Shown here one piece after another: positions 9,710 to 42,210 of a stretch of DNA of 64,000 nt (positions are counted from its first letter, which is position 1; each line of letters starts with the position of its first letter). The notes under the pieces are model-generated. The model saw nothing but the letters and a program-made list of their open reading frames with translations. It made no database searches and was not told the DNA's origin. This DNA comes from Hyphomonadaceae bacterium (GTDB lineage: Bacteria; Pseudomonadota; Alphaproteobacteria; Caulobacterales; Aquidulcibacteraceae), in NCBI GenBank assembly GCA_022841905.1, contig JALHQO010000009.1, positions 1 to 64,000 on the forward strand, given 5' to 3'. The translations under genes were made by a program, and so were the position numbers.

Positions 9710-10717
9710 ATGTCGGACTCGACTCGACTTCAATTGACCTACCTCGCCGCCGCCCAAGCGCAGAAACATGTCAGCGTGAACGAGAGCCTGCGCAGGCTCG
9801 ACGCCTTAGTGCAGCTTTCGGCCAAATCGCGCTTCACCGCCGCTCAACCCGCCTCACCCGCGGATGGCGACATATACATGCTGCCGTCCGGCAAAACCGG
9901 CGCCGATTGGGGCGCGATGGCAGACGGCGCACTCGCTTACTATCGCGACGGGGCCTGGGAAGAGCTGACGCCCAAGCATGGCTGGCGCTGCTACATTGAG
10001 GACGAAGACGCGCTCATGGCCCGCGGCGCCAGCGCCTGGGTCTCGATCGGCGCGGCCGCGGAGCGCAGCCTGATCTTCACCCCTGGCGGCGACGGCGTCG
10101 TTTCGGTCTACCGTATCGACACGCCGCGCGTGCAGAACCCCCGCACCGCCACCATCAGCTCAGTCAGCGGCGACGAGATCACTTTGAGCGCCGCCGTCGC
10201 CGACACGTTCTTCGGCGCCATCATGGCAGGCGTATCCTATTTGCGCATCTGGAACACGTCCAAGACGCCCGCCGAGCCGGCCTGGGTCAAGTCCGCGCCA
10301 ACAGCGGACAAGCTCGAAGTGCTCGACGCAGCCGCTCTGAGCGGTTGGGCCGGTGGCGAGACGGTGCAGATCGGCGATCCAACCAGCGTCACGCCGAACA
10401 ATTTCATCGCGCTCGACATTTCGCCCATGATGCAGACCGTGCTCGGCCGGGTGTTTCGACAGGCCGGGCTTGTATGCAAGGTGGCGGCGAACGGGGTCGG
10501 AACGCAAAGCATTCTGTCGCTTTCCGAAGCCGGCGTGAGCGGCGCGCATCAACCGACACGCAGCCTGCTCGACGGCTCGATCATGACGACGCAGACGATC
10601 ATTCCAAGCTCGGTCCAATCGCCGATTTCGAACTCAAACTTGTTGTTCGTGCAGGAATTGGCCCCCGGCGCGGCGGCGGGTGTCGCAGTGGTGAGCGTCC
10701 AGGCCGTGCTGGTATAA
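9710..10717 (+). CDS. DUF2793-family protein (phage/GTA tail-associated-like)
   Basis: This 335-residue protein begins with MSDSTRLQLTYLAAAQAQKH, followed by SVNESLRRLDALVQL and the DGDIYMLPSGKTGADWG and YYRDGAWEELTPKHGWRCY segments. I recognise these as the DUF2793 domain, which occurs in prophage and gene-transfer-agent tail regions and also singly in alphaproteobacterial genomes. The C-terminal 170 residues are beta-rich and low in charge, perhaps a carbohydrate- or surface-binding fold. I chose ATG 9710 for its AGGAGA at a five-base spacing; the frame is open upstream to 9605. No other phage genes accompany it. It stands divergent from the exporter operon, so a role in the cell surface or as a receptor-binding protein is possible but unproven. 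Confidence 0.7.
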   Translation: MSDSTRLQLTYLAAAQAQKHVSVNESLRRLDALVQLSAKSRFTAAQPASPADGDIYMLPSGKTGADWGAMADGALAYYRDGAWEELTPKHGWRCYIEDEDALMARGASAWVSIGAAAERSLIFTPGGDGVVSVYRIDTPRVQNPRTATISSVSGDEITLSAAVADTFFGAIMAGVSYLRIWNTSKTPAEPAWVKSAPTADKLEVLDAAALSGWAGGETVQIGDPTSVTPNNFIALDISPMMQTVLGRVFRQAGLVCKVAANGVGTQSILSLSEAGVSGAHQPTRSLLDGSIMTTQTIIPSSVQSPISNSNLLFVQELAPGAAAGVAVVSVQAVLV

Positions 10718-10761
10718 GCGAATGCGATTGCCGGCTGAACGCCTTCCGCTATTGATACGAA

Positions 10762-11491
10762 ATGAGCTTTTTTGAGCAGCATGATCGCTTCTTTCAGAGC
10801 AGCATCGTCGGCGCTTGGCCGCTGCGCTTAGCGTTGCGCCACCTCGCCATTATCGAAACGAACGCGCGCTGCATTGCCGGGGCCCGCGTGCTCGATCTGG
10901 CGAGCCATGACGGACGATGGTCGTTGGCGGCGCTCAATGCCGGTGCAGCGCACGTCACCGGCGTCGAGGCGCGGCCCGATCTTGTCGCCGCCGCGAACGC
11001 AAATTTCGAGCACTACGGCGTGGCGCGCGATCGCTACGACTTCGTCGTCGGCGACCTCAACCATCAACTCCAGGCGCCCGGCGCGTTCGATGTCGTGGCT
11101 GTGCCTCGGCTATTTCTATCACACACTCAACCACCTCGCACTCTGGCAATATATCGCCTCGACCAACGCCCAGCACGTTATCCTCGATGGCGAGGTGGCG
11201 CCCGGTGAGGACATGATCATCCGCGTTGTCACCGAAGACATCAGCGCGCACGCCAATGGCACCAGCGCTGCTGGCGTGCTCAACGGCCAGATGCTTGTCG
11301 GACGCCCGACCACCTCGGTGTTAGGCGCAATGCTCCGCCATTTTGGCTATGACTGCACGTTCTTCGATTGGGCCACATTGCTTCGAGAACGTGGCGTGGC
11401 GTTCGATCAGTCCGTGCAATCTGCTACCAATCCCGTTGGCGATTACGGAGTCGGGCGACGCGCCACCGCGCTCGGCGTGCGCGTCGACTAG
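10762..11491 (+). pseudogene. SAM-dependent methyltransferase, frameshifted
   Basis: The first frame (from ATG 10762) encodes a class I methyltransferase start: GARVLDLASHDGRWSLAAL (SAM-binding motif I), then VTGVEARPDLVAAA and YDFVVGD. It continues to GAFDVV near 11097 and then turns into unrelated, quickly ending sequence. The next frame picks up exactly there with LCLGYFYHTLNHLALWQYI and continues to a stop at 11491. Removing one G at about 11096-11098 joins them into one protein of about 242 residues. Either the gene is broken, or it is a recoding or sequencing artefact. It ends tail to tail with the sulfotransferase at a shared CTAG. Methylation of a glycan residue is a guess from the context. 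Confidence 0.75.
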
Positions 11492-12252
11492 CCGGCCATC
11501 ATCGGTTCGGCATAGTGAGGATCGCGCCAGTCAGCTAAATCGAGGCCAGTTTGCGCCTCAATGGCAGGGTACCCAGGCGCATAGATCGCTTCCAAATATC
11601 GACGATCAGCATCGAGCATCGGATCGCCCAAGCGGGATTCAACCGGCGTTATGTACGCACTCTCAATCGAGGCATTCCGCAATCCGAGGAAGGCGAACAG
11701 CCGAGCCAACTCCGCTGCGCTATCGCGAAACATGTTATCGGTGCGAAAGAAATGACTCTGCGCGCGCGGGAACAAGCCGATGAGACGCGCAAGCTGCTGA
11801 TCGTAGAAGCCGCGCTCGACATAGGAGAAGACGCGGTGGACGCCATTGGGCGCGCCAGACACCCGATCGCGCCCAGCGCGGATCGCATCTGAGAAGCTTA
11901 TCGCCTCCGCCCCCCGAGCGACCTCCATGCGCCAATGCGAATAGGCACGGAAAGCGGGGTGGCGCAGACCGACGATAATCTTAGCTGCAGGATTGTAGGC
12001 GCGCAGCCGCTCTAAGGCGTTGGGCCAGTAAGTGTAGATAGGCGTCGCTTCGCCACGCGTTCGTGTGTCGCTAGCGTCATAAGCAGCGTGCAGGCGTCCG
12101 AAGTCCGGCGCGGACCAGTCGACGCTCTCATCGTCGAAGAAATGCACCTCCTTCTCGCGCGCCATGGCGATCTCGGGGTGCTGGCGCAGCATGGCGTCAA
12201 GCGCGGTTGTCCCGCCCTTCTGAACACCGGCCACGAAAAAGTCGACGCGCAT
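11488..12252 (-). CDS. Sulfotransferase domain protein
   Basis: This 254-residue protein transfers sulfate from PAPS. The N-terminal strand and phosphosulfate loop read FFVAGVQKGGTTAL, followed by KEVHFFDDE (the conserved EKEVHFFD region). The 3'-phosphate-binding stretch is KIIVGLRHPAFRAYSHW, with the Arg and Ser expected of the family, and SYVERGFYDQQL comes later. The profile resembles bacterial carbohydrate sulfotransferases and the heparan N-deacetylase/sulfotransferase type. AGGAGGAG lies immediately before the ATG, unusually close, but no other start keeps the first strand. It is divergent from a sulfatase gene 38 bp away and near cysDNC, which would supply PAPS. Confidence 0.9.
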   Translation of the reverse strand: MRVDFFVAGVQKGGTTALDAMLRQHPEIAMAREKEVHFFDDESVDWSAPDFGRLHAAYDASDTRTRGEATPIYTYWPNALERLRAYNPAAKIIVGLRHPAFRAYSHWRMEVARGAEAISFSDAIRAGRDRVSGAPNGVHRVFSYVERGFYDQQLARLIGLFPRAQSHFFRTDNMFRDSAAELARLFAFLGLRNASIESAYITPVESRLGDPMLDADRRYLEAIYAPGYPAIEAQTGLDLADWRDPHYAEPMMAG

Positions 12253-12290
12253 CTCCTCCTGCCGGTCCCGTTAGTGTAGCACAGCGCCTA

Positions 12291-13649
12291 ATGTCGCCGC
12301 CGAACATCCTATTCATTGTGCTCGACGATTTGAATGCTTGGATTGGCGCGCTCGGGCGTCATCCGCAAGCGCAGACGCCGCATATCGATGCACTGGCGCG
12401 CCGCGGCGTGCTGTTCGAGAAGGCCTATTGCAGCGCGCCGTATTGCAATGCCAGCCGCATGGGCCTGTTTACTGGCCAGCTGCCGTCAACGCTGGGCATC
12501 TATGACAACGAGCCGTTCTGGGCGAACTCTGCACGTCCGCCAGTCTTTATCGAGCGTTTGCGCCAAGCGGGTTATCGCAGCTTCGGCGCCGGCAAGGTCT
12601 TTCACGGCGTCTTCGACTATGCGAGCGCCGGCGCGAGCGGCGCGCGCCAAGCAGCGTGGATCGAAGTCGAAAACCGCGCCGCTATTTGGGATGCCTACGC
12701 TGACAGCACGGCCGAGCCGCTGCCGCTTAACCGACCGCTGAATCGGCTGTTCGATTTCAGCGCCTTCGACCAAGTGCCGCCGATGTATCGCCACTTCGAC
12801 TGGGGGCCACTGCCGGCGGAGAGCGAGGACGCGACTCCCGATGCCGGTGTCGCGCACGCCGTGTCGAAATATCTGGCACAAACCACTGGGCCGTTCTTCT
12901 GCGCCGCAGGCATCTACAAGCCGCATCTGCCCTGGCACGCGCCGCAACGATTTTTCGATCTCTACGACCGCGACACAATCATCTTGCCGGAAGTGCGCGA
13001 CGACGATCTCGACGACGTGCCGCCGATCGGGCGGCAATGGGCGCTCGATCCTCCGGACCATGAATTGGTGACATCACGCGGCGTCTGGCGCGACGCGGTG
13101 CGTGGGTATCTGGCGTGTGTGAGCTACGCCGATCACATTGTCGGCCAGATCGTCGCCGCACTCGACGCTTCGCCAGCGCGCGATAACACCGCCATCATCC
13201 TCTGCGGCGACAACGGCTTTCACCTCGGCGAGAAGCTGCACTGGCGCAAGTTCGCGCTGTGGGAAGAAGCCACACGCGTGCCGTTGATCGTCGTGCCGCC
13301 CGGCGGCGCAAGCGGCGTGCGCGTACGCGAGCCGGTTAGCTTGATTGATATCTGCCCGACCGTGCTCGATCTCGCGGGCATTGCCGCGCCGGATGGCGAA
13401 GCATCGAACCTGATGCCGTTTGTCTCTAACGCCGACGCCAAGCGTGCACAGCCAGTGATCACGACTTGGCTGAAAGGCAACCATTCGCTGCGCGATATGC
13501 GCTATCGCTACACACGCTATTCCGACGGCGGCGAGGAACTCTACGATCACGCCGCCGATCCTTACGAATGGACCAATCTCGCAAGCCAGCAACGCGACCT
13601 GTGCCGCCGCTTTTCAGCGGCGATCGATGCGCAATGCGGTGCGGGCTAA
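12291..13649 (+). CDS. Type I sulfatase, iduronate-2-sulfatase-like, without signal peptide
   Basis: The 452-residue protein has the metal-binding start NILFIVLDDLNAW (Asp12, Asp13). The formylglycine site is CNASR, with Cys52 to be modified. Further motifs are AGKVFHG, GIYKPHLPWHAPQ and CGDNGFHLGEKLHWRKFALWEE. These are close to iduronate-2-sulfatase/choline sulfatase-type enzymes that hydrolyse sulfate esters. I start it at ATG 12291; the 28 upstream residues in frame are basic and not a signal. There is therefore no evident export signal, although most sulfatases of this class are periplasmic. Activation needs a formylglycine-generating enzyme, which is not in the window. It may edit or recycle sulfated intermediates made by the neighbouring sulfotransferases. 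Confidence 0.9.
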   Translation: MSPPNILFIVLDDLNAWIGALGRHPQAQTPHIDALARRGVLFEKAYCSAPYCNASRMGLFTGQLPSTLGIYDNEPFWANSARPPVFIERLRQAGYRSFGAGKVFHGVFDYASAGASGARQAAWIEVENRAAIWDAYADSTAEPLPLNRPLNRLFDFSAFDQVPPMYRHFDWGPLPAESEDATPDAGVAHAVSKYLAQTTGPFFCAAGIYKPHLPWHAPQRFFDLYDRDTIILPEVRDDDLDDVPPIGRQWALDPPDHELVTSRGVWRDAVRGYLACVSYADHIVGQIVAALDASPARDNTAIILCGDNGFHLGEKLHWRKFALWEEATRVPLIVVPPGGASGVRVREPVSLIDICPTVLDLAGIAAPDGEASNLMPFVSNADAKRAQPVITTWLKGNHSLRDMRYRYTRYSDGGEELYDHAADPYEWTNLASQQRDLCRRFSAAIDAQCGAG

Positions 13650-32001: not shown

Positions 32002-32805
32002 ATGCGCATTCGAGCCGGCTTTGACATCACCTACGAATGCCCCGCGCCGGCATCGGCTGTCCTCACGCTAAACGTCCATCCAAGCCGCCGCGACGATCTG
32101 CTGACGCCCGACACGCTGAGCAACGATCGCGGCGCGGCGATGGGGCAGTATCTCGACTCCTTCGGAAACATCTGCATCCGCGTGTTGTTGCCGGCGGGTT
32201 CGACCACTTTTTCCAGCGACTTTCTCATCAAGGATACGGGCCTGCCCGACCGGGTTCTCCCGGACGCCAAACTCACAACAGTTGAGGCTCTGCCGGATGA
32301 TGTGATGCTCTATCTGTTGGGCAGCCGCTATTGCGAGACCGATCGCATGAGTGAATTCGCGTGGTCGATGTTCGGCAGCACGCCGCCGGGATGGGCGCGG
32401 GTTCAGCGCATCGTCGACTACACGCACGATCGCATCAAGTTCGGCTATCCGCACGCGCGCGCCACACGCACTGCCTGGGAAGCGCACGAAGAAGGCTTGG
32501 GCGTCTGCCGCGATTTCGCACATCTCGCGGTCACCTTGTGCCGCTGCATGAGCGTGCCAGCGCGCTATTGCACCGGCTATCTGGGCGACATCGGAATCCC
32601 GCCCGTCGATGCGCCGATGGATTTCAGCGCATGGTTCGAAGCCTATCTCGATGGCGAGTGGCACACCTTCGACGCGCGCCACAACACGCCCCGTATCGGC
32701 CGCATCCTCATCGCCCGCGGACGCGATGCCACAGATACGGCGATCGCCACCACCTATGGCACGGCCAATCTGACGGGCTTTAAGGTGGTAACGGACGAGG
32801 TCTAG
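32002..32805 (+). CDS. Transglutaminase-like cysteine peptidase family protein
   Basis: This 267-residue protein has an N-terminal beta domain (IRAGFDITYECPAP) and a transglutaminase core. The nucleophile Cys is in GLGVCRDFAHLAV, followed by RCMSVPARYCTGYLGD, and the catalytic His and Asp region is EWHTFDARHNTPRIGRILIA. Such bacterial proteins are usually peptidases or amidases rather than cross-linkers. It has no signal peptide. Its stop shares a CTAG with the stop of the opposing oxidoreductase. Confidence 0.88.
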   Translation: MRIRAGFDITYECPAPASAVLTLNVHPSRRDDLLTPDTLSNDRGAAMGQYLDSFGNICIRVLLPAGSTTFSSDFLIKDTGLPDRVLPDAKLTTVEALPDDVMLYLLGSRYCETDRMSEFAWSMFGSTPPGWARVQRIVDYTHDRIKFGYPHARATRTAWEAHEEGLGVCRDFAHLAVTLCRCMSVPARYCTGYLGDIGIPPVDAPMDFSAWFEAYLDGEWHTFDARHNTPRIGRILIARGRDATDTAIATTYGTANLTGFKVVTDEV

Positions 32806-34034
32806 CGTTCGTCTTGTTGTCCGAACGCTCGATATGGATCGAAGCACGATACATCAGGATCATCTTCGCCACGTATCAGAGCTCTGACCATCTCCGAGCC
32901 TAGCGCTGCGAAAGTCACGCCATTGCCGCCATAACCATAAGCCAGCAAAACGCGAGCCATAGTCTGGGCGCGGCCAATGGCCGGCAGCCCATCCGGCGAA
33001 CCGCCGAATGTGGCCGCCCATGCGCAATCGAATTGGATGTCGTCACGTTGCAGCATCAATGCCGCCTTCGCCGCGAGAACGGCCTGCTTCTCCGGTATCA
33101 AGGCGTCACGCTTCATCGCATCGACGAAATCCTCGTCCTCGCCGCCGACGATGATGCGGCCGTCCGTGGTTGCGCGCGCATAAAGGTACGGGTCCGATGA
33201 TTCCCAGATCAACGCGTTTTCGCACCATGCCGGCGCTTCGCCCGGCTTGCTCGCAATGGCGTAGCTCGATGAAAGCGAAAAGGCTTCGGGCAAAAACAAC
33301 CTAGCCGCCTCATAACCGGTGGCCAGCACCACATGCTTTGCCCTGATGTCGGCGCCGTTCTCGCAGTGGACGCGGACACCTTCTGGCGCCAGCTCAAGAC
33401 GCTCAACTTCATACGGATAGCACAGCTTCGCGCCCGCGCTGCGCGCTGCTTTGATCATGCCCAAGGTTAAAGCGACCGGATCGACCTCGAAGCTGCCGCT
33501 CGAGAGCAGTCCATCACGAGGCGCAATGTCGAACCGCTCACCAAGCGTAGCCGCCTCCATAAACTCAGAAGGCAATCCCGCGGAGACACGCGCTGCCGCT
33601 TCTTGCTTCAGTGAATCGGGGTCGAGCACGTCGCCGGCGAGATAAAGCTCCGGACGAGCCCGCCAGCCGCAGTCAAGCGTGAGTGTCGCGATCCGATGAT
33701 TCAACAACTCGACAGCACTGAACACGCGCCGCCAACGCCGCATCGCTTCTTCCACACCAATCGCGCGCGCCAAGTGTGTCAACGGAACGTCGGCGCCCCA
33801 CATGACGAGCGCGGTCGAAGCCGCGGTCGCGCCAGTTGACGACGCGCGCCGATCCAGCAGCGTGACGTCAAACCCCTCCGCCGCGAGGCGTTGAGATACC
33901 AACGCACCCATGACACCGGCGCCGATGATGACGACATCGCACGACTGCGGCAGCTGATCCGGCTCGTATTGGCTTGGCGCCTCGCGCCAACAATTGCGCC
34001 CGCCGCGTAGATCAAGTCGCTCCGCGAGGTTCAT
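32802..34034 (-). CDS. FAD-dependent oxidoreductase (DAO family)
   Basis: This 410-residue protein has the FAD-binding VVIIGAGVMGALVSQRLAAE with its acidic end TLLDRR, a substrate domain of the D-amino-acid oxidase/glycine oxidase type, VVLATGYEAARLFLP, and the C-terminal GLPAIGRAQTMARVLLAYGY. It resembles gamma-glutamylputrescine oxidase-like enzymes (start LDLRGGRNCWREAP), but the substrate cannot be assigned. It follows the catalase gene by two bases; an oxidase makes hydrogen peroxide, so co-transcription with catalase makes sense. Confidence 0.88.
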   Translation of the reverse strand: MNLAERLDLRGGRNCWREAPSQYEPDQLPQSCDVVIIGAGVMGALVSQRLAAEGFDVTLLDRRASSTGATAASTALVMWGADVPLTHLARAIGVEEAMRRWRRVFSAVELLNHRIATLTLDCGWRARPELYLAGDVLDPDSLKQEAAARVSAGLPSEFMEAATLGERFDIAPRDGLLSSGSFEVDPVALTLGMIKAARSAGAKLCYPYEVERLELAPEGVRVHCENGADIRAKHVVLATGYEAARLFLPEAFSLSSSYAIASKPGEAPAWCENALIWESSDPYLYARATTDGRIIVGGEDEDFVDAMKRDALIPEKQAVLAAKAALMLQRDDIQFDCAWAATFGGSPDGLPAIGRAQTMARVLLAYGYGGNGVTFAALGSEMVRALIRGEDDPDVSCFDPYRAFGQQDER

Positions 34035-36279: not shown

Positions 36280-37047
36280 TTAGCCCGACGCTTCGGCGGC
36301 GATCAGTACGACCGAGATATTGTCGCGGCCGCCAGCTGCTAGGGCCTGATCGACGAGACTTTGCGCCGCCCACTCTAAGGGCGCGCGGCGGACGATTTCG
36401 CTGATGCTTCGATCGCCAACCGAGCCGGACAAGCCATCGGAGCACAGAAGAAAGCGATCTCCCGGCAGGATGGCGCCGCATTCAGCATCGAGACTGATCG
36501 TCGGCTGAACGCCCACAGCGCGCGTAATGATGTTGGCCTTCGGGTGCACAGCGGCTTCGGCCGGCGAAAGCGCGCCCGCATCGACCATCTCTTGCACCAT
36601 GCTGTGATCGCGCGTGAGGCGCCGGAGCACGCCATTTCTGTAGAGATAAGCGCGGCTGTCGCCGGCCCAGAGGCAAGCGAAGTGGCCGCGGTGCGCCAGA
36701 AGCGCAACAACGGTTGAGCCCATGGTCCCGTTTTCGGATTCAGCGAACAGCGCAGCACTCACCTCGCCCATGGTGCGGTTGACGTTGTCACGAAACGCGT
36801 AGGCAGAGCCGAAGGACTTGACGGTCGCGAGCGCATCGACAATTCGCGTGCTGGCGACATCGCCGCGTTCGTGCCCGCCCATGCCATCAGCAACCGCCCA
36901 CAGACCGGCATCGGGACGATTGAGACAGGCATCTTCGTTCAGCGTGCGCACGTGGCCAACATGGCTTCGCGCGACAGACAGAAATTTCAGGCCGGCAAGG
37001 TGCTCGACGCGGCCAGGCCCATCAGCTGCAAGAAGAGATGCGCTCAC
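36280..37047 (-). CDS. PP2C-type Ser/Thr protein phosphatase (PppA/Stp-like)
   Basis: This 255-residue metal-dependent phosphatase removes phosphate from Ser/Thr residues. All PP2C motifs are present: NEDACL (Asp39), VADGMGGHERGDVAS (Asp54, Gly55), GSTVVALL, CLWAGDSRAYLYRNG, RDHSMVQEMVDAG, LLCSDGLSG and GGRDNISVVLI. It is cytoplasmic, with no membrane segment. Its ATG overlaps the FHA gene stop (ATGA) and it ends the five-gene operon. It should reverse phosphorylation by the kinase encoded two genes upstream, as PppA reverses PpkA in type VI secretion control. Confidence 0.94.
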   Translation of the reverse strand: MSASLLAADGPGRVEHLAGLKFLSVARSHVGHVRTLNEDACLNRPDAGLWAVADGMGGHERGDVASTRIVDALATVKSFGSAYAFRDNVNRTMGEVSAALFAESENGTMGSTVVALLAHRGHFACLWAGDSRAYLYRNGVLRRLTRDHSMVQEMVDAGALSPAEAAVHPKANIITRAVGVQPTISLDAECGAILPGDRFLLCSDGLSGSVGDRSISEIVRRAPLEWAAQSLVDQALAAGGRDNISVVLIAAEASG

Positions 37048-38099
37048 GATAGGGTGCTCAATCCATCGAGCTTGCGAACGTGGCGCTCATAACCGGTTTT
37101 GAACGCGCGGTTGATGACGCTTTGCGCGTTCTCGCGGGCGTCAGCCACCAGACTGGCGTGGCGCTTCTGGAATGCGCGCCAGCACGCCTCGCCTTTCAGC
37201 AGAACGGTATGGCCCTTTGCTTCTTCCTCAACGCCAGAGGGGCTCAGCCCCTCGAAGGCAGCGGCGACCGCGGCACGTGAACCGGCCATCAGACACAAGA
37301 GATGCTTCTTCAAGTCCTGGAATGAGGCGTTCACAGCCGCGCCGCCAGACAAAAACGGCGCATTGCCCGAGCGCAGCAGATCGACCGCGACGCGATGGGG
37401 GTCGGCCCATTTGAATGGATTGTTTTCGGTCGCCGACACACGTGTGCGATTCATTTCGTACTCTGATTTGAGCGAAGTGCGCTCGCCCATGAGATCGGCA
37501 AGCCCCAGCACGGCTTGGCGATAAACCTGGCCGGCGCGACGCATCACGTCGGCCGGGTCCTCGCCTGCAAACACTGAAGGATCGAGTCCGGCGCCTTCGC
37601 AGAAGGCTTCCAACAGCGCCGCGTCCGGTAGCGGCGCGCGCGTCGGCGTAGCCGGGGACGGCCGCTCCCAATTGTCGATGACCACGAAGTCCGCCGCGGA
37701 AAGTACAGGTTCGCGTAACATCGGCGAATGGAACGGCGCATCGATGGAGCCGCCTTGCGATTCGACGCGATCGTTCGCAGGCGCCATCGCGAAATCGACG
37801 GTGATCATGAACTGGCCGAGATGAATGGCGTCATCGGCCTCCAGCAATGTCTCCACGTCGCGCGGCAGGCGCCGCCGTTCTTGGCCGACGAAGACACCGT
37901 TAGCGCTCAAGTCACGCACGTGAACGCCGGCATCGCTGACGCGTAGCGCGCAATGACGGCGCGAGAGTTCGCAAGCAACGTCCTCGATCAGCCAATCAAC
38001 GCCAGGATCGCGCCCGATCTCCACAACGCCGGCGGCAAGGGCCCGCGTCTCGATGGGCCGGAACGGATCGGCGGCGTGAAACAGTCTTAGAGTGACCAT
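37044..38099 (-). CDS. FHA-domain protein with TagH-like C-terminus
   Basis: This 351-residue protein has an N-terminal FHA domain (about 5-100) with the phosphothreonine-binding residues in VEIGRDPG (Gly29, Arg30), ELSRRHC (Ser46, His49) and LSANGVFV. The middle is acidic and proline-rich. The C-terminal 150 residues (ENNPFKWADPHRVAVDLL to NAQSVINRAFKTGYERH) match the TagH/ImpI C-terminal domain, which I know from type VI secretion clusters. It should read threonine phosphorylation made by the neighbouring kinase. It overlaps the kinase end by 13 bp. No type VI structural gene is present here. Confidence 0.88.
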   Translation of the reverse strand: MVTLRLFHAADPFRPIETRALAAGVVEIGRDPGVDWLIEDVACELSRRHCALRVSDAGVHVRDLSANGVFVGQERRRLPRDVETLLEADDAIHLGQFMITVDFAMAPANDRVESQGGSIDAPFHSPMLREPVLSAADFVVIDNWERPSPATPTRAPLPDAALLEAFCEGAGLDPSVFAGEDPADVMRRAGQVYRQAVLGLADLMGERTSLKSEYEMNRTRVSATENNPFKWADPHRVAVDLLRSGNAPFLSGGAAVNASFQDLKKHLLCLMAGSRAAVAAAFEGLSPSGVEEEAKGHTVLLKGEACWRAFQKRHASLVADARENAQSVINRAFKTGYERHVRKLDGLSTLS

Positions 38100-39805
38100 T
38101 CTTGTCCCCGTTGCTCGTCTTGCGGCGCCGCACTTTCATTGGCCGGCGCGAGAATGGTGGTTACGTTCAAGTTCGCCGGCCGCACGAAGCCGCCCGCTTC
38201 CATCCGTTTGTGCATGGCGACCATCAAGGCGTTGAACGCCTCAAAAAGATCGCCGAACTCGTCGCGTCGTTGGTGTGAGATGCGGAAGTCGAGATCGCCG
38301 CCTGCCGCATCGCGGAGCGCGAGGCGAAGCTGACGCACCGGCCCCAATATCCATTTGGTTGCGGCGATGGTGAGGCCAGCGACCAGGACAAGCGTGAGCA
38401 GGCCAAGCCCGATCATCATGATGCGCGAGATCAAAGCGGCTTGGTCGAGCGCGGTGCGCAGAACGCTGACTTCCACTGCGCCGACGTGATGGCCGGCGTA
38501 CTCGATGGGGCGGGTGAAGCGGAAACTCTGCGCACCGTCCGAGGTGCGCATCGTCGTTACGGTCACTTCGGTCGACCCGCTTTCGATGCGCCGGCCGGTT
38601 GGCTCCAAATAGCGCGCGCCGACGAGATCGGGTGTGCTGGCGGCCTGGATGACGCCTTCATGGTCCACGATCAGCATTTGCGTGACGTTTGGATCTTCGG
38701 CAGCGGCCATGACGAAGGCGCGCGTGGGCAACCAGTCGCGCTGTTCAGGCGGCAGGCCGATGTTTTCCGCTGCGGTCAACGCCGCATTGCTGGCGACGAA
38801 TGAGGCGATCGAGGCGCCGGAGGTGAGCGCCACCTGCTCCATCGCCGCATATTGGCGGTCCAGAACGAAGCCGATTCCGAGCGCCAGCACGGCGGCGGTG
38901 ATTGCGGTGGTGAGCAGCGCTGCACGCGCCGGCAGCGGCAACCGACGCTTGCCGCCATCGGCCTGAGTGTTCTCGAACGCCGCCTTCTCGCGCTGCAGCG
39001 CTTCCAACAACGCCGCGCCACTGGCGAAGCGCTTCTCCGAACGCTTCGACAGAAGCTTTTCGATGATGAAACGGAGACCGGCCGGGCATTCCGGCGAGAC
39101 CTGGATCGGCGCGGGGTCCTGTTGCGTGATCTGCAGCGCCAGCGTCGCAGCGCTTGCGCCGTTAAAAGCCGGACCGCCAGTGATCAATTCGTAGAGCAGC
39201 GCGCCGACGGAAAACAAATCAGATCGCCCATCGAGTTCGCGGCCGAGCGCCTGTTCGGGGCTCATGTAACGCGGCGTGCCAACAACCTGGCCGATTTGCG
39301 TGCGCACCATTTCGGCCGCTTGCGTTTCGGTGCACTGCTCGATGCGCGCTATGCCGAAGTCGAGAATCTTGAGCGTGCGGCCATCCTTGCCGAGCATGAT
39401 GTTGGACGGCTTTATATCGCGGTGAACGATGCCCTGGGCGTGCGCGTAACGCAGCGCTTCCGCCAGCTGGCAGCCAATGTCGATCACCTCGCCGATCGGG
39501 AACTGACCCTTTTGCTCCGCGATCTGATCGAGCGGAGCGCCATCGAGCAATTCCATGGCGATGTAGGGGAAGCCCTCGATCTCGCCGACGTCATAAATGG
39601 TGACAATGTTGGGATGCGACAGCGCGCCGGCGGCGCGCGCCTCCCGCAAAAAGCGCGAGGCAAACTGTGCATTTCGGCAATACTCGCGCTTCAGCACCTT
39701 GATCGCGAGCACGCGATTGATGCCGGGATCATAGGCGCGATAGACATTGGCCATTGCGCCCTGTCCGATCCGCGCCTGGATCTGGTATCTGCCGACGAGC
39801 TTCAT
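38087..39805 (-). CDS. Transmembrane Ser/Thr protein kinase with extracytoplasmic sensor and C-terminal HAMP
   Basis: In this 572-residue protein, residues 7-265 are a complete Hanks-type kinase. It has the glycine loop GQGAMANVYRAY, Lys36 in LAIKVLKR, catalytic loop IVHRDIKPSN (Asp130), DFGIAR (Asp149) and TPRYMSPEQAL. A membrane helix (about 292-313) leads to a 140-residue Cache-like outer domain (NVTQMLIVDHEGVIQAAS, then YLEPTGRRIESGSTEV). A second helix (about 462-484) and a HAMP domain (ATKWILGPVRQLRLALRDAA, EFGDLFEAFNALM) follow, with a short tail. HAMP domains normally feed a histidine kinase or cyclase placed after them; here the output kinase is at the other end. The gene is flush with the LysM gene stop. 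Confidence 0.92.
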   Translation of the reverse strand: MKLVGRYQIQARIGQGAMANVYRAYDPGINRVLAIKVLKREYCRNAQFASRFLREARAAGALSHPNIVTIYDVGEIEGFPYIAMELLDGAPLDQIAEQKGQFPIGEVIDIGCQLAEALRYAHAQGIVHRDIKPSNIMLGKDGRTLKILDFGIARIEQCTETQAAEMVRTQIGQVVGTPRYMSPEQALGRELDGRSDLFSVGALLYELITGGPAFNGASAATLALQITQQDPAPIQVSPECPAGLRFIIEKLLSKRSEKRFASGAALLEALQREKAAFENTQADGGKRRLPLPARAALLTTAITAAVLALGIGFVLDRQYAAMEQVALTSGASIASFVASNAALTAAENIGLPPEQRDWLPTRAFVMAAAEDPNVTQMLIVDHEGVIQAASTPDLVGARYLEPTGRRIESGSTEVTVTTMRTSDGAQSFRFTRPIEYAGHHVGAVEVSVLRTALDQAALISRIMMIGLGLLTLVLVAGLTIAATKWILGPVRQLRLALRDAAGGDLDFRISHQRRDEFGDLFEAFNALMVAMHKRMEAGGFVRPANLNVTTILAPANESAAPQDEQRGQEWSL

Positions 39806-40525
39806 CTAGTTGGCTCCGCCCAACGAAGCTTGCAGCCGCACCGCCCGATCAAGGTCGCGCTGTATGGCCGGATTGCTGGCGTCGAGGGCCCGGGCTTGGC
39901 GCAGCAAAGCCACCGCGCGATCGACGTTGCCGCCGTTCAAGTGCTGCAACCCTTGTAGGCGCAGCTCATTGGCGCGGCTGGCGTTGGCGCTGGGCGTGGA
40001 CGCCAGCGGCTGTGTTGGTCTGGGCGTTGCCGGAGACTCGGCGCCTGCCGATGGCGCGGACGCTACGGAGACGCCCTGGCGCCGCGGGATCATCAGCGTC
40101 TGCCCAGCCGAGAGTTGGTTCGGCGCATCGAGATCGTTGTAGCGAGCGAGAGCGTAAAAGAGCAGCGAGTCGCCGAGAAAGCGCTGGGCGATCTCCGACA
40201 TCGTCTCACCCTGGCGAACGGTGTAAGCGCGCGCCGTTCCTCCGCCCAACACTTCAGCCGGATCGCCATTGATCTGCTCCAGCAAGCGTGAAGCGGAGCG
40301 CAGATTGGGCTGCTCCTCGAGCGCCGCCTCGAGTTCAGCTTCGGCGCGGCGCGCGTCGCCCTCGCCGAGCAACTCGATGGCGACACGCACCCGCTCGCGC
40401 GGCGCGAGATCGGGGGTCACTGACGACGAGTTGGGCAACACATTGCCGATGTCGGGCATGTGCGAGCATGCGCTGGCGAGCATGGCCGCAAGCGCGGCCG
40501 CCATAACGCGGAATGGCCGTATCAC
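39806..40525 (-). CDS. LysM-domain lipoprotein with TPR-like repeats
   Basis: This 239-residue protein starts at GTG 40525, which overlaps the EAL gene stop (GTGA) and has AAGGAGA at eight bases. A lipoprotein signal ends at LASAC (Cys20), so the protein is anchored in a membrane facing the periplasm. Residues 40-90 resemble a TPR pair (RVAIELLGEGDARRAEAELE). A LysM peptidoglycan-binding domain occupies about 100-143 (YTVRQGETMSEIAQRFLGD and NQLSAGQTLMIP). After a Ser/Pro/Ala linker, a final TPR (LQGLQHLNGGNVDRAVALL) closes the protein. It could report cell-wall status to the kinase encoded next; that is inferred from position. Confidence 0.85.
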   Translation of the reverse strand: MIRPFRVMAAALAAMLASACSHMPDIGNVLPNSSSVTPDLAPRERVRVAIELLGEGDARRAEAELEAALEEQPNLRSASRLLEQINGDPAEVLGGGTARAYTVRQGETMSEIAQRFLGDSLLFYALARYNDLDAPNQLSAGQTLMIPRRQGVSVASAPSAGAESPATPRPTQPLASTPSANASRANELRLQGLQHLNGGNVDRAVALLRQARALDASNPAIQRDLDRAVRLQASLGGAN

Positions 40526-42210
40526 GAGAGACGTCTCCTTAATTCTTCTTGTTGACGGCGCACGGGCGAACCAAGACGCGCCGTCCACTCCGGGTCGGAA
40601 ATCGCTTTCAGAAAGTCGCCCGCGACAAGCGGGCGCGAGAAAAAGTAGCCCTGGAAGGTCGAGCAACCGAGCGCGTGCAAGGTCTCCACCTCTTCGAAGC
40701 GCTCAACCCCTTCGGCAAGCACGGCGAGTTCGAGCCCCGCCGTCAGATCGATGAGCGCTTTGCAGATGGTGCGGCTATCGGCGCGCTGATCGACATAAGA
40801 AACAAACTCGCGATCGATCTTCAGCTTCTGGAACGGCAAGCGACGCAGATAGGCCAAGCTCGAATAACCGCTACCGAAATCGTCTATCGCCAGACTAAAA
40901 CCAGCCGCGCGCAATTGTTCGAACATGGCGTGCGTGCGCGCCGCGTCTTCCATGGCGGCGGTTTCGGTCAATTCGAGTTCGAGTTGCGAGGGCTTCAGGC
41001 CATGCGAGGCCACCATCCGTTTCAGCGCGCTGACCAGCGAGCTATCGCGAAGCTGGTGCGCCGAAATGTTCACCGCCACCTTGAGATCATTGTGGCCGGC
41101 GTCGCCCCACTCGCGCAGCTGGCGGCAGGCGGCGTTGACGGTCCAAAGACCGATCTCATGCACCAGTCCGCTGTCCTCAAGGATCGGCACGATTTGGGTC
41201 GGCGAGATCATCACGTTGCTGGCGTTGCGCCAGCGCAGCAGCGCCTCGGCCCCGACGACGCGCCCCATCGCGAGATCGACGATGGGCTGATATTGGAGTG
41301 TTAGTTCGTTGCGCCGGATTGCGTGACGGAGATCCTGCTCGAGCGAAAAGCGCCGCCGCGCGACTTGTGGTGAAGGCCTGGCGAAGAAGGCGATCGCGCC
41401 CTCGGCCGTGCGCTGCGGCCGCGCCAGCGAGACGAAGGCGCGGTTCAAGAGATTGGCGGGCTCATCGGCATCGGCCGGATAGAGTGCAGCGCCCAGCTGA
41501 ATGTCGGGCGTGACCGTCGCCTCATTATCTTCGATATCGCGCATCAGCGCGTAGCCGATCGCTTCCAGTTCGGCCTGCGCTGCTTTCGTGTCCGTCCCCG
41601 CGCCAAACCAAACAGCAAAGCAGTCGCGGTCGACATGCGCGAGCGGACGGCCTGCACCGACAGAACCAGTAAAGCGCGCGGCAGTCGCCGCCAGAATACG
41701 ATCGGCGGCATCGACATCGAAGGCGACGATCTGATCGTAGTTCGCCAGACGGACTAGGCCCAGCAGAGCCGGCGTCGCGCAGAAAGCCAGATCCTGTGAA
41801 ACCGTCTCAAAGAAAACTTCCCGCCTTGGCAACCCGGAGACCGGGTGGCGCTGCGCCTGTTTGTCGAGCGCCTCTAGCCGAGCTGTGATGATCTGGAAGT
41901 TGGCGATGATCTGGCGATGATCATCAGACGTCGCGCTACGACCGGAATCTTGTTCTCGGACTTGACGATCAAGCATGCTTGCGATCGCAGCGATCGGCCG
42001 CAGCGAACGCACCAGGCCGATAAAACTGAGCAGCGTCACGCCGAGCGCCAGCGCCGCCAGCGGACGCGGCCCTTCTAGGGTCGCGCTCACATAGAGCAAC
42101 GCCAAGAGCGGAAAGAGCGAGGCCAGAACGGCGTAGGTGAGCGCGCGCGCGCAGACGCCGCGCGGCAGTAGCCGCGTCATCGTTTGCAGGCTGCTTGCCA
42201 ACGCACCCAT
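40522..42210 (-). CDS. c-di-GMP phosphodiesterase: EAL domain with degenerate GGDEF, membrane-bound
   Basis: In this 562-residue protein, two adjacent membrane helices (about 25-70) are followed by a coil and a degenerate GGDEF domain (about 120-275). The active loop there reads HVDRDCFAVWF instead of GGDEF, so no cyclase activity is expected. The EAL domain (about 290-545) is intact: EALLRW (Glu322), AVNISAHQL, ELTETAAM, IDDFGSGYSSL, KIDREFV, AEGVE and QGYFFSRPL. It should hydrolyse c-di-GMP. It is the first gene of the operon with the LysM lipoprotein, kinase, FHA and phosphatase genes. An inverted repeat sits directly before its ATG. Confidence 0.92.
   Translation of the reverse strand: MGALASSLQTMTRLLPRGVCARALTYAVLASLFPLLALLYVSATLEGPRPLAALALGVTLLSFIGLVRSLRPIAAIASMLDRQVREQDSGRSATSDDHRQIIANFQIITARLEALDKQAQRHPVSGLPRREVFFETVSQDLAFCATPALLGLVRLANYDQIVAFDVDAADRILAATAARFTGSVGAGRPLAHVDRDCFAVWFGAGTDTKAAQAELEAIGYALMRDIEDNEATVTPDIQLGAALYPADADEPANLLNRAFVSLARPQRTAEGAIAFFARPSPQVARRRFSLEQDLRHAIRRNELTLQYQPIVDLAMGRVVGAEALLRWRNASNVMISPTQIVPILEDSGLVHEIGLWTVNAACRQLREWGDAGHNDLKVAVNISAHQLRDSSLVSALKRMVASHGLKPSQLELELTETAAMEDAARTHAMFEQLRAAGFSLAIDDFGSGYSSLAYLRRLPFQKLKIDREFVSYVDQRADSRTICKALIDLTAGLELAVLAEGVERFEEVETLHALGCSTFQGYFFSRPLVAGDFLKAISDPEWTARLGSPVRRQQEELRRRLS

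Follow-up and report, generated by a model that had tools for sequence, protein, structure and literature searches.

The 64,000-nucleotide window analysed here (positions 1 to 64,000 of contig JALHQO010000009.1, assembly GCA_022841905.1, from a Hyphomonadaceae bacterium) contains five tightly packed genes on the minus strand at positions 36280-42210, which encode an EAL protein, a LysM-TPR lipoprotein, a Ser/Thr kinase with HAMP and Cache-like domains, an FHA/T6SS_FHA_C protein and a PP2C-type phosphatase (Table 1). The five genes overlap or abut, as the original prediction had described, and its observation of a coupled five-gene cassette is confirmed.

Gene organization and domain architecture of the cassette

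Table 1. Coordinates and predicted features of the five-gene cassette
Position	Strand	Feature	Length (aa)	Domains and predicted properties
40522..42210	minus	EAL protein	562	Membrane-anchored; degenerate GGDEF and intact EAL domain; predicted c-di-GMP phosphodiesterase
39806..40525	minus	LysM + TPR lipoprotein	239	Length counted from GTG 40525; predicted outer-membrane lipoprotein
38087..39805	minus	Transmembrane Ser/Thr kinase	572	Cytoplasmic PknB-like kinase, periplasmic Cache-like domain, HAMP, disordered cytoplasmic tail
38144..38164	minus	Kinase tail motif		Residues 548-554 (V-T549-T-I-L-A-P); candidate phosphothreonine docking site for the FHA protein
37044..38099	minus	FHA protein, TagH-like	351	FHA domain (aa 27-95) and T6SS_FHA_C helical domain (aa 168-339)
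36280..37047	minus	PP2C-type protein phosphatase	255	

The lipoprotein most likely starts at a GTG codon that overlaps the EAL stop codon as GTGA and is preceded by AAGGAG at 40540-40535, although a longer open reading frame could be read from TTG 40666. The ATG of the kinase directly follows the lipoprotein stop, the FHA gene starts 13 nt inside the kinase gene, and the GTG of the PP2C gene again forms a GTGA overlap with the FHA stop.

Profile searches against Pfam and NCBIfam assigned a domain to each of the five products. The EAL domain scores 246.5 bits (E=3e-73) and is accompanied by a sub-threshold GGDEF; the LysM domain scores 39 bits (cut-off 20.9), and the kinase has Pkinase (167 bits) and HAMP (43 bits) domains. 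The FHA protein matches FHA (PF00498, 40 bits), T6SS_FHA_C (PF20232, 127.5 bits; cut-off 23.7) and TagH (TIGR03354, 183 bits; cut-off 120), but shows no GGDEF or EAL domain. The phosphatase passes the Pfam PP2C cut-off at 52.6 bits, whereas its score for the Stp1/IreP family (NF033484) of 207.6 bits is below the cut-off of 230.

Residue conservation was analyzed over 56 rows, leaving out locus L034, a near-copy of the window's locus, and locus L043, which has a split kinase ORF. The nine EAL catalytic positions (E322, N381, E413, D443, D444, K464, E500, E503 and Q520) are identical in 56 of 56, whereas none of 56 has an intact GGDEF at residues 194-198. The kinase residues K36, D130 and D149 are kept in 56 of 56, and the phosphothreonine-binding residues R30, S46, H49, N67 and G68 of the FHA domain in 55 of 56. 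Of the PP2C metal-ligand residues, D54 and G55 are kept in 56 of 56, D130 in 55, and D204 and D242 in 54. The lipobox Cys of the lipoprotein is present in 56 of 56, followed at +2 by S, A, G or T and never by Asp, which by the sorting rule fits an outer-membrane lipoprotein. Hydropathy analysis showed two hydrophobic segments (18-46 and 49-70) in the EAL protein, and two in the kinase in 56 of 56.

The AlphaFold model of the kinase and the structure model of the FHA protein have a mean pLDDT of 83.6 and 84.9, respectively, with the kinase tail (residues 538-572) below 50. Structural similarity search using Foldseek gave PknB as the best hit of the kinase model; in the 50 rows shown for each model, the FHA model matched FHA-fold chains and the kinase model kinase chains, which revealed nothing about the T6SS_FHA_C domain or the sensor domain.

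Distribution of the cassette and its relation to type VI secretion

A scan of named genomes with the FHA protein yielded 71 alphaproteobacterial loci, 57 of which carry all five genes in this order on one strand, across many genera of Sphingomonadales and Caulobacterales. The flanks are not shared: within 4.5 kb and with crude ORF calls, no flanking family occurs in more than 9 of 56 loci (L034 left out), and no conserved sixth gene was found in these flanks. A tblastn search with Pfam-confirmed TssC, TssK, TssM and TssL queries found nothing in the 57 loci, in the window or in nine further module loci, whereas all five T6SS control loci matched; 49 of the 57 loci hold at least 5 kb upstream and 50 at least 5 kb downstream. 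Neither EAL nor PP2C is indispensable, as two relatives (L012 and L031) have the module without EAL at the locus and without TssC in the genome, and three loci (L057, L074 and L094) show no PP2C even at E<=1. A plasmid search gave one Sphingobium hit covering 96% of the FHA protein at 36% identity, and a search in the genus with the neighboring glycosyltransferase and catalase gave no clear empty site.

The FHA family of the cassette is otherwise nearly a T6SS marker. Among the other Pseudomonadota genomes with PF20232, 68 of 69 have TssC, and the 69th (G572) carries this cassette. By contrast, the window's genome, which is 99.4% complete, has no TssC or TssK match, and within its order 10 of 14 genomes with PF20232 lack both TssC and TssK, whereas 4 have both. 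Of the 71 loci, 50 were tested for TssC in their genomes; 39 of the 46 counted as cassette-type, which include two without a PP2C hit (L057 and L094), have no TssC, and 7 have a TssC match, one of them only a fragment. Henriciella aquimarina LMG 24711 (L040/G175) and Sphingomonas sp. Leaf412 (L058/G316) are examples of strains with the cassette and no TssC match. Several loci of the scan appear to be the same genomes as members of the order-wide set (L034 and G001, L035 and G008, L036 and G017, L040 and G175, L041 and G250, L095 and G211), so that the two sets overlap.

In a quick FHA tree, the cassettes, the EAL-less variant and five T6SS rows (L088, L092, L093, L103 and L140) form one set (value 99) apart from 36 other T6SS rows. 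LysM-type T6SS clusters of Sphingomonas and Caulobacterales (L103/L144, L145, L093/L146 and L088/L147) share the FHA subfamily of the cassette but are embedded among tss genes. The same kinase type, with HAMP, and a LysM-type lipoprotein by the cassette profile are found in L144, L146 and L147; the Pfam LysM cut-off is passed in L146 and was not reached at 1e-5 in L103/L144, L147 being identified by the cassette profile alone. No EAL hit was found at E<=1 in the ten T6SS stretches searched. The T6SS-type rows fall beside Phenylobacterium cassettes in both the FHA and the kinase trees, but a single cassette clade is not rejected (p-AU 0.47; the kinase outgroup branch is very long), which leaves it unresolved whether the cassette arose from T6SS or the reverse. 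A profile comparison of the FHA family with TssK was uninformative.

A candidate phosphothreonine motif in the kinase tail

The alignment of 54 kinases, chosen from the loci in hand plus the window and loci L009, L010, L012, L031 and L033, revealed a near-invariant Thr at column 549 (51 of 54) with I, V or L at +2 (51 of 54) in an otherwise variable stretch. The pattern T.[IVL] occurs in 21 of 23 non-redundant tails, against 8.7 (sd 2.2, maximum 16) in shuffled tails, although the pattern was chosen after seeing the tails; two of the 54 (L012 and L033) lack it. Similar motifs are present in the T6SS-type kinase tails, which read DKTVIEI (L147) and DRTVISP (L146), and at the N-termini of the TssL-position proteins of L145, L103 and L093, in which DRTIIG, DRTMIG and ERTVIR were found. 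The kinase tail motif of the cassette resembles the published ligand of Agrobacterium tumefaciens Fha, the TssL peptide DLPpTVVEI, whose binding is lost in Fha R30A S46A (PMC3953482); the FHA protein of the window has both R30 and S46. However, FHA domains usually also read the +3 position, which is not conserved here, and the published Fha-TssL affinity is weak (0.54-1.58 mM). We regard the conserved Thr as the likely docking site, although docking there is inferred from sequence. In the EAL protein, no Thr outside the EAL domain reaches 95% conservation, which argues against direct docking of the FHA protein on it.

A proposed envelope-to-c-di-GMP circuit and its alternatives

We propose that the five genes encode one membrane signaling circuit built from the threonine-phosphorylation module that otherwise switches on type VI secretion, in which the secretion machine is replaced as output by a c-di-GMP phosphodiesterase. 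In this view, an outer-membrane LysM lipoprotein bound to peptidoglycan and the periplasmic Cache-like domain of the kinase would sense an envelope state, and the kinase would autophosphorylate, including at Thr549 in its disordered tail. The FHA domain would dock on pThr549 and so bring the T6SS_FHA_C domain to the membrane, where it would change the activity or location of the membrane-anchored EAL enzyme and alter local c-di-GMP, whereas PP2C would reset the switch. The analysis itself establishes the gene order, the conservation, the intact active sites, the predicted topology, the tail motif and the independence from T6SS; on the other hand, the signal and any report of peptidoglycan state by the lipoprotein, phosphorylation by the kinase including that of Thr549, FHA docking there, c-di-GMP hydrolysis by the EAL protein and, as the weakest step, control of EAL by the FHA protein are inferred from sequence alone. 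In addition to the conserved order with unshared flanks, the distances of the EAL family follow those of the other four (r 0.80-0.88; permutation maximum 0.25), although correlated distances also arise from plain shared descent. We consider this reading about as likely as not, also in its most far-reaching form, in which a widespread T6SS-independent version of the module in Sphingomonadales and Caulobacterales carries on the kinase's own tail the docking motif found on TssL in T6SS relatives.

The interpretation given in the original prediction is partly supported. The cassette is a real unit that resembles T6SS control, and one condition that had been set to refute it, that homologous cassettes always lie next to tss genes, does not hold. 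However, the suggestion that a link from peptidoglycan state to c-di-GMP through threonine phosphorylation would be new is too strong for the general link, as DgcB of Bdellovibrio bacteriovorus is gated by an FHA domain that reads a phosphothreonine tail (PMC6733907).

Other readings were weighed against this model. The arrow might run the other way, with the EAL protein binding or degrading c-di-GMP as an input that gates the kinase-FHA-phosphatase switch, the real output being an unlinked target elsewhere in the genome. EAL is the first gene and keeps a degenerate GGDEF module that could sense, relatives without EAL at the locus indicate that the core can work without it, and no conserved docking Thr is seen in EAL; yet the nine catalytic positions are kept throughout, more than a pure receptor needs, and EAL is missing from the T6SS-cluster stretches searched, as if it takes the place of another output, so this reading appears doubtful. 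Somewhat less likely still, the operon might merely pair an envelope kinase pathway with a phosphodiesterase so that both are made together, without direct signaling between them. There is no interaction evidence and no conserved candidate phospho-site in EAL, but the same gene order over very diverged genomes with unshared flanks and the co-varying sequence distances argue for a functional unit.

It is very unlikely that the cassette regulates a T6SS encoded elsewhere or is a leftover of one, and for the window this was rejected by the absence of TssC and TssK matches from its genome. The TagH score, the nearest non-cassette relatives of FHA and kinase, which lie in T6SS clusters, and the 7 of 46 cassette genomes with a TssC match speak for it. 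However, most cassette genomes lack TssC, in one genome with both (G310) a separate FHA and a PP2C lie near TssC, and the catalytic and binding residues are under constraint, unlike a relic.

Compared to the PpkA-Fha-PppA pathway, as in the A. tumefaciens Fha-TssL system (PMC3953482), the cassette shares a Hanks-type kinase with intact catalytic residues, an FHA protein with R30 and S46, and a pThr-type motif in a cytoplasmic terminus, and the T6SS relatives found here have the same C-terminal domain family and PP2C. It differs in lacking tss genes at the locus and TssC or TssK matches in its genome, in the added EAL gene, and in placing the candidate motif on the kinase itself rather than on TssL. 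Moreover, the PpkA of Acidovorax citrulli has a kinase, one transmembrane segment and a periplasmic C-terminus (PMC12607579), whereas the kinase here has two hydrophobic segments followed by a HAMP domain and a tail predicted to be cytoplasmic, in addition to a Cache-like sensor. In the TssW-PpkA-Fha axis of A. citrulli, which serves a T6SS, an outer-membrane protein encoded between the kinase and FHA genes acts as a spatial anchor for the kinase; LysM is not mentioned in that description (PMC12607579). DgcB combines FHA and GGDEF (synthesis) in a single protein whose kinase is not identified, whereas the cassette has separate proteins, a linked kinase and phosphatase, and EAL (degradation). 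The individual pieces therefore have precedents, whereas no description of this cassette was found among the titles returned by literature searches of open-licence PubMed Central.

If correct, the model would show a secretion-machine regulator reused as a general envelope signaling circuit, and would give Gram-negative bacteria a defined route from outer-membrane/peptidoglycan state through Ser/Thr phosphorylation to c-di-GMP. The tail motif also turns what the FHA protein reads into a directly testable question. The cassette also warns that an annotation as type VI secretion-associated TagH need not imply a T6SS in these orders.

Organization and distribution of the five-gene cassette

The arrangement described in the original prediction is correct: five genes, encoding an EAL protein, a LysM-TPR lipoprotein, a Ser/Thr kinase, an FHA protein and a PP2C phosphatase, lie on the minus strand with no gap between them. 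The EAL/lipoprotein and FHA/PP2C pairs share GTGA stop-start overlaps; in addition, the ATG of the kinase directly follows the TAG of the lipoprotein, and the FHA gene starts 13 nt inside the kinase gene. The neighbors are a catalase and a FAD oxidoreductase downstream, and a divergent glycosyltransferase and a glycogen-debranching-type enzyme upstream, none of which is a secretion gene. A homologous FAD oxidoreductase lies near the cassette in two species of the genus, but on opposite sides of it. Each domain is supported by Pfam and NCBIfam, and the FHA protein exceeds the cut-off of the TagH model.

Coordinates and sizes of the cassette genes and related features (L numbers denote loci collected in the searches)
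Record	Positions	Strand	Feature
Window	36280-42210	-	five-gene cassette
Window	40522-42210	-	EAL protein with degenerate GGDEF domain, 562 aa
Window	start at GTG 40525	-	LysM-TPR lipoprotein, 239 aa
Window		-	Ser/Thr kinase, 572 aa
Window		-	FHA protein, 351 aa
Window		-	PP2C, 255 aa
Window	32802-34034		FAD oxidoreductase
L011	3930-5141		homologous FAD oxidoreductase
L012	5920-10764		variant module without EAL at the locus
L031	9213-14079		variant module without EAL at the locus
L033 (apparently the same genome as L095)	9834-12363		Hyphomonas cassette
L145	14-1462	-	TssL-position protein, DotU confirmed by Pfam
L103	12925-14355	+	TssL-position protein, by position after TssK and similar N-terminus
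L093	8330-9772	+	TssL-position protein, by position after TssK and similar N-terminus
AP027331.1	973850-974821		cassette-type FHA gene on a Sphingobium replicon

The family PF20232 (T6SS_FHA_C) is rare near the window, being present in 5 of 101 relatives (own genome included) and in 14 of 299 genomes of the order. Of these 14 genomes, four have both TssC and TssK, with TssC on the same contig as the FHA gene, whereas ten have neither. The ten hold the same module: seven genomes (G000, G001, G008, G107, G175, G211 and G250) have the five genes in order, the contig-cut G017 shows the lipoprotein end, kinase, FHA and PP2C, and G067 and G118 have FHA, PP2C, lipoprotein and kinase in another arrangement with no EAL at the locus. 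Such a variant, seen at loci L012 and L031, combines FHA, PP2C and the LysM lipoprotein with an oppositely oriented kinase, and has no EAL at the locus and no TssC in the genome.

A scan of named genomes with a six-sequence FHA alignment gave 75 loci, 71 of which are alphaproteobacterial. Among the 71 loci, 57 have EAL-LysM-kinase-FHA-PP2C in order on one strand. Of the other 14, eight are cut by contig ends (L036, L047, L060, L066, L074, L080, L086 and L101), two (L057 and L094) have no PP2C hit, and four (L088, L092, L093 and L103) are T6SS loci. As the three cassette loci L057, L074 and L094 show no PP2C gene even at a relaxed threshold, the phosphatase may be lost or supplied elsewhere. 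The hosts include Sphingomonas, Sphingopyxis, Sphingobium, Novosphingobium, erythrobacters, Phenylobacterium, Henriciella and Hyphomonas. In a plasmid collection, a cassette-type FHA gene annotated as hypothetical was found on a 1.28 Mb Sphingobium replicon. The distribution is patchy, with full-length cassette-type FHA matches in 10 of 199 genomes of the family of G572 (a genome carrying the cassette, see below), and PF20232 in 4 of 30 genomes examined from the genus of the window. In 56 loci no flanking family recurs in more than 9, so the unit is these five genes.

INDEPENDENCE from type VI secretion and relatives inside T6SS clusters

Across Pseudomonadota, 70 of 398 genomes have PF20232. 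Of the 69 besides the window's own genome, 68 have TssC, and the exception, G572, carries the five-gene cassette. Of 46 named cassette-type genomes tested, 39 have no TssC and 7 do, one of them only as a short fragment. No TssC, TssK, TssM or TssL homologue lies in the 57 cassette loci, the window or nine further module loci, whereas five of five T6SS control loci matched. So the family is nearly a T6SS marker, and this module accounts for the exceptions seen.

In a quick, midpoint-rooted tree of 73 FHA proteins, the cassettes, the EAL-less variant, the four T6SS loci L088, L092, L093 and L103, and the T6SS row L140 form one set supported at 99, apart from 36 other T6SS rows. In the T6SS clusters L103/L144, L146 and L147, a LysM-type lipoprotein and a HAMP kinase lie near tss genes, although the lipoprotein of L103 scored only as TPR in Pfam at 1e-5; no LysM-type lipoprotein was seen in L145, L140 or L141. 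No EAL was found at E<=1 in ten T6SS stretches. The direction of change is not resolved by the trees, as kinases of the T6SS type fall beside Phenylobacterium cassettes, but one clade of cassettes is not rejected (p-AU 0.47).

Active sites, predicted topology and the kinase tail motif

In 56 cassettes, the kinase catalytic residues (K36, D130 and D149) are invariant, and the FHA residues R30, S46, H49, N67 and G68 are found in 55. For PP2C, D54 is in all 56, D130 in 55, and D204 and D242 in 54. The EAL residues E322, N381, E413, D443, D444, K464, E500, E503 and Q520 are in 56 of 56; by contrast, the GGDEF signature is degenerate in 56 of 56, but keeps a frequent Asp-Arg at the signature, as if this domain had another role. 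The lipobox Cys is in 56 of 56 with no Asp at +2, and the kinase has two hydrophobic segments in 56 of 56, which places the Cache-like domain outside, and HAMP and the tail inside. The Cache assignment is weak in the window (17.7 bits, below the cut-off of 28.4); however, sCache_3_2 is matched at E<=0.01 by 33 of 54 kinases. The predicted models have a mean pLDDT of 83.6 for the kinase and 84.9 for the FHA protein.

The kinase tail after HAMP is variable and modelled as disordered (residues 538-572), yet position 549 is Thr in 51 of 54 and the +2 residue is I/V/L in 51 of 54. The pattern T.[IVL], which was chosen after seeing the tails, occurs in 52 of 54 tails against 20.0 expected, and in 21 of 23 non-redundant tails against 8.7 (maximum 16 in 2000 shuffles). 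In Agrobacterium, Fha binds TssL phosphorylated at Thr14 in the peptide DLPpTVVEI, with a Kd of 1.58 mM (0.54 mM for a 20-mer), and R30A S46A abolishes binding of the 8-mer (PMC3953482). The T6SS-type kinase tails read DKTVIEI in L147, DRTVISP in L146 and APETVMLAQ in L144. The TssL-position proteins of L145, L103 and L093 carry one or two [DE]RT[IVM]I motifs in the N-terminus (DRTIIG, DRTMIG and ERTVIR, respectively), the region where A. tumefaciens TssL is phosphorylated. In addition, two Phenylobacterium cassette tails end with DRTIIGGRS, and a Henriciella tail reads AETVVLDE. We infer that the FHA protein docks on the phosphorylated tail of the kinase itself, although the +3 position, usually important for FHA domains, is not conserved, and two of 54 tails (L012 and L033) lack the pattern. 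In the Hyphomonas cassette L033, the FHA protein is also shortened at its C-terminus, possibly a sign of decay.

Inferred circuit and its precedents

The likely circuit would start with an envelope signal received through the lipoprotein and the Cache-like domain, followed by kinase autophosphorylation, FHA docking and action of T6SS_FHA_C on the EAL enzyme, and would be reset by PP2C. Of this scheme, the gene arrangement, the conserved residues and the tail motif are seen directly in the sequences, whereas the signal, autophosphorylation, docking and the action on the predicted EAL enzyme are inferred. The role of the lipoprotein as a kinase anchor is proposed by analogy with TssW (PMC12607579). 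The action on EAL rests on gene linkage, on the absence of EAL in the T6SS stretches searched and on co-varying distances (r 0.80-0.88 with the other four genes), which shared descent also gives. Moreover, no Thr outside the EAL domain of the EAL protein reaches 95% conservation. The reverse direction, with c-di-GMP as the input, and mere co-expression both remain possible, and the original interpretation is only partly supported, the proposed link from peptidoglycan state to c-di-GMP through threonine phosphorylation being inferred only.

Parts and single links of this circuit are already known, namely the PpkA-Fha-PppA pathway, an outer-membrane anchor of the kinase, and FHA-phosphothreonine control of a diguanylate cyclase in Bdellovibrio DgcB (PMC6733907). 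What differs from these precedents is the stand-alone five-gene unit, which was not described in any title listed by our literature searches of open-licence papers. As the relatives inside T6SS clusters show, the same kind of module occurs either with tss genes or with EAL.
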